Of a stretch of 64,000 bases of DNA, positions 22,328 to 63,176 are shown in pieces. This DNA is from Defluviitaleaceae bacterium (GTDB lineage Bacteria; Bacillota; Clostridia; Lachnospirales; WRAX01): assembly GCA_009784575.1 (NCBI GenBank), contig WRBK01000008.1, forward strand, positions 1 to 64,000. Direction: 5' to 3'. Position numbers and translations under genes: made by a program. The notes beneath the pieces are model-generated. The model made no database searches and was not told the DNA's origin. It saw only the letters and a program-made list of their open reading frames with translations. Positions within the stretch are counted from its first letter, which is position 1. The number at the start of each line of letters is the position of its first letter.

Positions 22328-22366
22328 GAGGGTGCGGATATTGTGTCTGCACCCTCTATTTTATTG
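22328..22366 (+). terminator. Intrinsic terminator of pepF
   Basis: The hairpin GAGGGTGC/GCACCCTC is followed by TATTTTATT, 13 bases after the stop codon. Confidence 0.85.
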
Positions 22367-22654
22367 CAAGACCCACAAACCCTCACCTATCAAATGTGCT
22401 ATAACGATAAATATGATTACTAAATTAAGCAAACACGCAAATGGTATCAATATTCTGAACGCCGTCTTACGTGTTTTGTGGCGAAAAGCAATCATGCCTA
22501 AGAGTGCGCCGAAACCGCCCATGACAAAAGCGCAAAATATCAGCGTTGCTTCTTTTGTGCGCCATGTGTTTAGTTTGGCTCTGCCTTTGTCTATACCAAA
22601 AAGAGCAAAAGTGATGATATTCCATATTGATAATATGATGAGAAATACGATCAT
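22361..22654 (-). CDS. DUF1294 family membrane protein
   Basis: Small integral membrane protein, 97 residues, with about three hydrophobic helices. It has the DUF1294 core FGIDKGRAKLNTWRTKE, then a glycine-rich helix FVMGGFGALLGMIAFRHKT. Function is unknown in the family. The start at 22654 follows AGGAGG (TTAGGAGGATTACAG); the longer frame to 22822 runs through a structured RNA region. It lies 27 bp beyond the terminator of the candidate RNA, so that RNA may be its regulated leader. Confidence 0.85.
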   Translation of the reverse strand: MIVFLIILSIWNIITFALFGIDKGRAKLNTWRTKEATLIFCAFVMGGFGALLGMIAFRHKTRKTAFRILIPFACLLNLVIIFIVIAHLIGEGLWVLQ

Positions 22655-22680: not shown

Positions 22681-22711
22681 ATAAAAAGTGCGCCAACAGG
22701 GGAGTTGGCGC
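22681..22711 (-). terminator. Terminator or attenuator upstream of the DUF1294 gene
   Basis: The hairpin GCGCCAAC/GTTGGCGC is followed on the minus strand by ACTTTTTAT. It lies between the candidate RNA and the DUF1294 ribosome site. Confidence 0.8.
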
Positions 22712-22832
22712 GAAAAAGGGGGTCGAAATAGGTTGAGAGATATCACCTGCTAAAACAGGCCGAAAAATGCGACTGTATGTAGATAAACGCACTTTCCGCC
22801 CAGCTTTAGCAAAAAGCAACACTTCTTTCTAT
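22683..22832 (-). ncRNA. Candidate structured small RNA or leader RNA, about 150 nt
   Basis: The transcript is predicted from a perfect consensus promoter to an intrinsic terminator. Near its 5' end it forms a long hairpin. The arms at 22788-22810 and 22749-22771 pair over 21 of 23 positions (G-U pairs included), with a 16-base loop. A small bulged hairpin follows directly (22730-22748), then the terminator. No coding frame with a ribosome site is visible. I do not recognise the family; it does not show the conserved SRP, 6S, tmRNA or RNase P motifs I know. Confidence 0.7.
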
Positions 22833-22838
22833 TTCTAA

Positions 22839-22867
22839 ATTATAACATTTTGTCTAATGATTGTCAA
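22839..22867 (-). promoter_or_regulatory. Perfect consensus promoter of the candidate RNA
   Basis: On the minus strand, TTGACA, a 17-bp spacer and TATAAT match the sigma-A consensus exactly. This is the strongest-looking promoter in the window. Confidence 0.9.
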
Positions 22868-22877
22868 TACTTATTTT

Positions 22878-24035
22878 TTAGGTAGAATAATGCATGGCAA
22901 AGGCGGCATAAAGAGCAGCTCCTATAGGCAGAGCATCCTCATTTACACAAAACTTAGGATGATGACCCTCAAAATAGTCGCCGCTATATGGCCCTGCACC
23001 AATGCTAGCAAAAAATGCGGGCGCAATCTTGCTAAAGGCTGAAAAATCTTCGCCGCCCATCATTGGTTTCATTTTATCTATAGTTACATCTGGTAATACT
23101 TTTATAATCAAATCCTTAAAATAATTGCAAAGCACCTCGTCATTATCCACAGCATCATAGCCATAGGTATAATCAAGCTCATAACTAGCACCATAAGCGG
23201 CGCAAATGCCTTTAAGAATATCATTTATGCGCTGCACCATTATCTCGCGCACCTCTGGTGTATTGGTACGTACAGTACCCAAGATGCGGGCAGTGTCTGG
23301 CACGATATTATGAGCGTGACCTGCATTAAAAGCACCTATGGTTAGCACGGCATTTTCAAATGCACTAACATTTCTGGAGACGATATGATGCAGAGCCTGC
23401 ACAATCTCTGTGCCTATAAGCAATGTATCTATGCCTTTTTCAGGGATTGCGGCATGTGTGCCTTTGCCCTTAATGTCTATAACAAACACATCGGCATTAG
23501 CAGAAACAGGTCCAGCAGATACTTTCACCACGCCAGCGGGTGCATCCATAAATACATGGCAACCATAAAAAGCATCAACATCATCCAAAATGCCGCTTTC
23601 TACAAGGGTTATAGCCCCACCTGGTGGATGTTCCTCTGCATGTTGAAAGATAAATTTAACTGTGCCTTCCAATTGGTCTTTTATTCCATGGAGAGCATCT
23701 AATGCACCTAGCAACATAGCGGCATGGCAATCATGCCCACAAGCGTGCATAACACCATCATTTTTGGACTTAAACTCCACATCGGCCTCTTCTGCAATGG
23801 GCAGGGCATCTATATCTGCACGCAAGCCTATTGTTTTACCTGGTTTGCCACCCTTTAGCACGGCTATAATCCCTGTTTCGGCAGGGCGCAATATTTCTAT
23901 ACCATCATACTTTGATATTTGCTCGACAAGATATTTTGTGGTTTCAAATTCCTTGAAGGAAACCTCGGGATACATATGTAGATGTCTGCGCCAATCAATG
24001 ACTTTTTGTACATTAATTAATTTTAAGATATCCAT
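22878..24035 (-). CDS. M20 family metal-dependent amidohydrolase
   Basis: Zinc-dependent hydrolase of the hippurate/N-acyl-amino-acid hydrolase group, 385 residues. The motifs are LRADIDALPI, HACGHDCHAAMLLGA, QHAEEHPPGGA and the C-terminal MMGGEDFSAF. The dimerisation lid lies around residues 185-290. AGGAGG precedes the ATG. The exact substrate (N-acetyl amino acid, hippurate or diaminopimelate derivative) is not resolved. It follows the small membrane protein gene after 2 bp. Confidence 0.92.
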   Translation of the reverse strand: MDILKLINVQKVIDWRRHLHMYPEVSFKEFETTKYLVEQISKYDGIEILRPAETGIIAVLKGGKPGKTIGLRADIDALPIAEEADVEFKSKNDGVMHACGHDCHAAMLLGALDALHGIKDQLEGTVKFIFQHAEEHPPGGAITLVESGILDDVDAFYGCHVFMDAPAGVVKVSAGPVSANADVFVIDIKGKGTHAAIPEKGIDTLLIGTEIVQALHHIVSRNVSAFENAVLTIGAFNAGHAHNIVPDTARILGTVRTNTPEVREIMVQRINDILKGICAAYGASYELDYTYGYDAVDNDEVLCNYFKDLIIKVLPDVTIDKMKPMMGGEDFSAFSKIAPAFFASIGAGPYSGDYFEGHHPKFCVNEDALPIGAALYAAFAMHYST

Positions 24036-63147: not shown

Positions 63148-63176
63148 TTGATAATCATAATATAAAATGATATAAT
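63148..63176 (+). promoter_or_regulatory. Promoter of the ytvI-like gene
   Basis: TTGATA, a 17-bp spacer and TATAAT, divergent from ftsK. Confidence 0.8.

Follow-up and report, generated by a model that had tools for sequence, protein, structure and literature searches.

Promoter, transcript and predicted structure

Between an M20 peptidase gene (22878-24035, minus strand) and a DUF1294 gene (22361-22654, minus strand; Pfam PF06961, 79.7 bits), the 64,000-nt stretch of DNA analyzed here (the window) carries on its minus strand a promoter, a long hairpin and a terminator. A preliminary description had offered two readings of this locus, a small RNA or a leader whose terminator controls DUF1294, and we asked which of the two it encodes.

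The promoter was as previously described. A motif scan placed the -35 box TTGACA at 22862-22867 and the -10 box TATAAT, preceded by TG, at 22839-22844 (both minus strand, 17-nt spacer), and this pair (22867-22839) was the sole match with 0 mismatches in the 64-kb window; with one mismatch allowed, the sigma-A pattern gave 5 matches vs. 0.92 expected. TTGACA or TTGACT was likewise found upstream of relatives in genomes G001 and G007. Elsewhere in the window, a promoter strikingly similar to that of the sRNA, spacer included (TTGATAATCATAATATAAAATGATATAAT, 63148-63176), serves an AI-2E permease-like gene. Fur control was considered and dropped, with Fur-box matches at chance (10 vs. 9.4).

With its start placed from the -10 box, the proposed sRNA transcript is ~153 nt long (22683-22835, minus strand). 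The predicted fold of 22835-22683 had an energy of -60.7 kcal/mol (z -6.98) and that of 22830-22681 an energy of -54.4 kcal/mol (z -5.95), and 0 of 200 shuffles were as good in either case. The long stem-loop (22748-22811, minus strand; arms 22811-22788 / 22771-22748 in the predicted fold) agrees with the 23-position hairpin first noted at 22810-22788 / 22771-22749. A second small hairpin had also been noted and is present (CCUGUUUUAGCAGG, CCUG-UUUUAG-CAGG; 22747-22760, minus strand), but it is not an additional element: it shares positions with the long stem's 3' arm and is an alternative to the top of that stem, so that in the window sequence the two are mutually exclusive. The intrinsic terminator was likewise found as reported, with a stem at 22711-22690 (GCGCCAAC-UCCCCU-GUUGGCGC, minus strand) followed by ACTTTTTATT.

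Directly 5' of the terminator lies a core, CUAUUUCGACCCCCUUU (22715-22731, minus strand), recognized by sequence conservation among homologs and in a class-wide RNA described below. Its left half, CUAUUUC (22731-22725), was predicted to pair with the transcript's 5' end GAAAUAG (22829-22835, minus strand) with pair probabilities of 0.99, a point against the sRNA reading proposed below; in G001 the 5' end is likewise predicted to pair with the C-rich part, using other bases. The following stretch, GACCCCCUUUUUC (22724-22712, minus strand), was predicted to be unpaired and is proposed as the seed. The C-rich terminator loop (22703-22698), also predicted to be unpaired, is a possible second seed. 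A GTG frame (22822-22361) running through the sRNA and in frame into DUF1294 was taken as chance because relatives differ by indels and conserve the helices. Taken from sequence, a putative RNA gene at this position is well supported.

The window gave 0 matches to any Rfam family at the gathering score, SRP, 6S, RNase P, tmRNA and riboswitches included, in keeping with the initial impression that motifs of these RNAs are absent; the 6S RNA of this genome was found on another contig (68.3 bits).

Homologs and covariation

A DNA search identified homologs in G007 and G001, and a covariance model was built from the 3' half that homologs share. With this model, the 3' module was found in 10 of the 16 genomes of the family, the window's genome included, and in none of 295 genomes of the order outside it; six family genomes, some of them incomplete assemblies, had no detectable copy. 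The conserved module consists of the small hairpin, the C-rich strand UAUUUCRACCCCCUUU and the terminator. All ten aligned homologs kept the small hairpin, and each of its six pairs showed changes on both sides. Over both module helices, in an alignment that had been fitted to the tested structure, 10 of 15 pairs had two-sided changes, a level that none of 500 shuffles reached; the covariation score was 0.548, compared with 0.289 for shuffles and no more than 0.141 when slid. The long stem was where covariation had originally been expected; it was the small hairpin and the terminator, on either side of the C-rich strand, that proved conserved and covarying. The long stem itself could be aligned in G001, with one two-sided change, was different in G007, and was elsewhere replaced by a tRNA.

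A search of named genomes confirmed the exact pattern in only three MAGs of the family; exact-pattern matches in rumen, Treponema and other genomes did not hold, and hits of the R2 model beyond the window's family, those in f31 excepted, were chance-like. A literature search for the core sequence returned no paper. Defluviitaleaceae are placed in Lachnospirales (NCBI), and isolate names within the family ('Defluviitaleaceae', Clostridiales MAGs) can be read as pointing to a termite-gut-type habitat. SpoIVA was found in 14 of the 16 family genomes, among them, as a partial match, the window's genome.

Gene neighborhood

As had been noted, the terminator ends 27 bp before DUF1294 (start 22654). 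The gap is too short to hold a separate DUF1294 promoter, and in this genome transcription therefore probably runs on into the gene to some extent. The same spacing, together with the mutual exclusion of long stem and small hairpin, speaks for a DUF1294 leader with a ligand- or protein-controlled terminator, as in a riboswitch-like attenuator; the alternative fold leaves the terminator out, however, and none of the nine homologous loci continues into DUF1294. The next genes there are others (MATE, hemolysin III, PBP5-like peptidase and more), mostly convergent, and two co-directional ones bear promoter-like sequences of their own. In G001, a member of the same genus, M20 again precedes the RNA, and a convergent MATE transporter gene stands in place of DUF1294; in G007 the RNA lies between maf and hemolysin III; in G002, where M20 is again the upstream neighbor, the module starts at the end of that gene and no promoter was seen. 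The leader reading is rejected because the neighbors differ among relatives: a riboswitch-like element for DUF1294 is not supported, and we hold it to be very improbable. Of the two options first offered, the small RNA stands; DUF1294 lies outside the conserved unit and probably receives only read-through.

Upstream of the M20 gene, the segment 24413-26259 holds an ECF sigma factor gene and, after it, genes for a GNAT protein and for a 246-aa membrane protein, which may be the anti-sigma factor of that ECF sigma factor.

An exchangeable 5' domain

Three types of 5' domain precede the module: the hairpin of the window, tRNA-Leu(AAG), and a decayed tRNA-like cloverleaf. The hairpin type, under its own sigma-A-type promoter, was found in the window, G001 and G007. 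In G004 (L042), G011 (L039) and G013 (L043), tRNA-Leu(AAG) is followed directly by hairpin, C-rich core and terminator, and in these genomes the module is possibly a tRNA-trailer sRNA. In G012 (L044), G014 (L040) and G015 (L038), the module follows a cloverleaf-like RNA with a recognizable T arm and a decayed anticodon part; that of G015 is about 60% identical to tRNA-Leu, and G015 has kept a normal tRNA-Leu(AAG) with an ordinary terminator ~800 bp away. With a tRNA, a tRNA-like relic and a plain hairpin alternating 5' of a single seed-terminator module, these loci form a series in which one can see how sRNAs arise from tRNA genes or attach to them.

The three loci at which the module directly follows tRNA-Leu(AAG) also fit a simpler account, in which the module is a terminator of conserved sequence that began as the tRNA-Leu(AAG) trailer, has no regulatory role, and survives in the window as a relic with a promoter. 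We regard this as unlikely: the tRNA-Leu(AAG) genes of G000, G001, G007, G012 and G015 have ordinary terminators and the module elsewhere, and the unpaired core, which is conserved beyond the requirements of a terminator, turns up again in ten other families as part of an unlinked sRNA.

A class-wide clostridial C-rich RNA

The core ATTTYRACCCCCTTT had 54 exact matches in 391 Clostridia genomes vs. 14 for the reversed control. Forty of these 54 belong to one highly conserved RNA in ten other clostridial families (L091-L107, L113-L137), which consists of GACCUCACAAAAUACAUUUUGACCCCCUUUACAU and a covarying terminator, with the core immediately 5' of the terminator. It is nearly invariant over ~30 nt, reaches three copies in one genome (G545), and had no Rfam match. 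Its adjoining genes vary; in several families it lies downstream of a gene that we take, by recognition of its sequence, to be shikimate kinase. The upstream consensus, TGTATAA-N-GGTCAATA.TA, resembles forespore sigma-F/G sites, a hint that this may be a conserved clostridial sRNA of sporulation. A frame reading MYFVRS opposite the class-wide core is broken by 1-2 nt indels and was set aside as chance.

A model built from the class-wide RNAs, without sequences of the window's family, matched the window at 22742-22683 with 30.8 bits; in 295 genomes of the order, the window RNA was the only match at an E value of 0.01 or better. Like the class-wide RNA, the window RNA carries AUUUYRACCCCCUUU directly 5' of its terminator. 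The 5' GACCUCAC block and forespore-like promoter of the class-wide RNA are absent at the window RNA, which has UAUCUCUC and a sigma-A-type promoter instead.

Since the class-wide RNA has another type of promoter and is without the 5' domain, the shared core could have arisen by convergence on targets of one type, as an anti-Shine-Dalgarno motif acquired independently by two sRNAs that are not homologous. C-rich seeds do arise repeatedly among Gram-positive sRNAs (PMC3861533), and the two RNAs differ in their 5' parts as well as their promoters. The match nevertheless runs beyond the C-run (AUUUYRACCCCCUUU), with almost unchanged spacing to the terminator, and the blind model's match to the window RNA is unique in 295 genomes; we consider convergence a possible but doubtful explanation. 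Somewhat ahead of it, though still tentatively, we would place both RNAs in one uncatalogued, widespread clostridial sRNA family, under forespore control in most lineages, which may have been rewired in the termite-gut lineage, acquiring there a vegetative promoter and exchangeable 5' domains, among them tRNA-Leu and its decayed copy, as a modular sRNA with the seed carried or released by tRNA processing. The riboswitch that had been guessed at is replaced by an sRNA family traceable across Clostridia, not in Rfam, with a precise, testable seed.

Proposed mechanism and candidate targets

The locus probably encodes a stand-alone trans-acting sRNA of ~153 nt, transcribed from a strong vegetative promoter, with a C-rich seed that would mask Shine-Dalgarno sequences. 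Several Gram-positive sRNAs, namely Rsa RNAs, RNAIII, FsrA and LhrC, are established to bind Shine-Dalgarno sequences through unpaired C-rich motifs (PMC3861533, PMC4132741), which in LhrC occupy the linker joining its stem-loops as well as the loop of the terminator (PMC4132741). By analogy, the unpaired CCCCCUUU and the UCCCC terminator loop would pair with G-rich Shine-Dalgarno sequences (e.g., AAAGGGGGU) of several mRNAs; ribosome binding would then be blocked, as for LhrC and Rsa RNAs, and the 5' domain (hairpin, tRNA or tRNA-like) may protect, hide or release the seed. A trans-acting, Shine-Dalgarno-blocking role is the best inference at the level of computed complementarity.

AAAGGGGGU-N-ATG sites were far above the reversed control in the family and often lay upstream of hydrophobic peptides of 25-45 aa, one of which scored above the Pfam Hol_Tox cut-off. 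Predicted duplexes of the RNA with AAAGGGGGU sites of the window's genome ranged from -18 to -22 kcal/mol, whereas 54 genes of the window averaged -9.1. Genomes with the RNA had a mean of 9.8 AAAGGGGGU-N-ATG sites vs. 3.0 for those without it, a difference that may merely track phylogeny. Genes for small Hol_Tox-like peptides whose ribosome-binding sites read AAAGGGGGU are put forward as candidate targets; it was the pattern itself that selected them, and for this reason they are no more than candidates. As a separate observation, loci L176-L185 and L189-L194 hold families of genes for hydrophobic peptides of 25-45 aa, some Hol_Tox-like and often in tandem pairs, whose AAAGGGGGUGAAGC ribosome-binding sites are almost the same throughout.

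A special case of the proposed Shine-Dalgarno masking would make the RNA a trans-acting antitoxin of Hol_Tox-like type I toxins with AAAGGGGGUGAAGC ribosome-binding sites. The recurrence of AAAGGGGGU-N-ATG upstream of such peptides, the strong duplexes at the peptide-gene copies of the window's genome and the richer complement of sites in genomes with the RNA all agree with it. The sites were, however, chosen by the pattern, their counts are open to the phylogenetic reading given above, the predicted pairing has a bulge, unlike that of perfect antitoxins, and known TxpA-like systems use cis-antisense RNAs; we think this special case quite unlikely.

Comparison with known systems

3'ETS-leuZ of E. 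coli is a regulatory RNA derived from the spacer 3' of tRNA-Leu. A comparable tRNA-Leu-trailer RNA is possible in G004, G011 and G013, a likeness of arrangement; unlike 3'ETS-leuZ, the module described here also occurs without a tRNA. 3'ETS-leuZ is named in PMC6191717.

CsfG is a conserved CU-rich sRNA of spore formers (Bacillus) under sigma F/G (PMC3574147, PMC9147052). The class-wide relatives resemble it in their sigma-F/G-like promoters and differ in their gene neighbors; neither they nor the window RNA matched an Rfam family of the CsfG region (ylbG-ylbH). The window copy has no CsfG-type forespore promoter and lies under a sigma-A consensus instead.

RsaH belongs to the Rsa sRNAs with a UCCC motif (PMC3861533), and its UUUUGACUCCCUUUA is similar to UUUUGACCCCCUUUA, the core of the class-wide RNA. 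The RsaH model (RF01821) gave no match to the window RNA at E values up to 10, and it scored 28.9 bits vs. a cut-off of 50 on one class-wide relative (L093:1442-1550), a weak match in which UUUUGACUCCCUUUA of the Staphylococcus RNA falls on the clostridial core.

The closest layout is that of LhrC/Rli22 of Listeria, which shares a stem-loop, an unpaired C-rich stretch and a terminator with a C-rich loop, and whose CU-rich motifs block Shine-Dalgarno sequences (PMC4132741). Its motifs in the unpaired linker and terminator loop have predicted equivalents in the window at 22724-22712 and 22703-22698. The window RNA scored 20.8 bits with the LhrC/Rli22 model (RF01457) vs. a cut-off of 80, a weak match, and, unlike LhrC/Rli22, it is present in single copy and its 5' domain is swapped with a tRNA in relatives. 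By this comparison, the best reading is of an RNA that would work like LhrC and the Rsa RNAs from outside those families.
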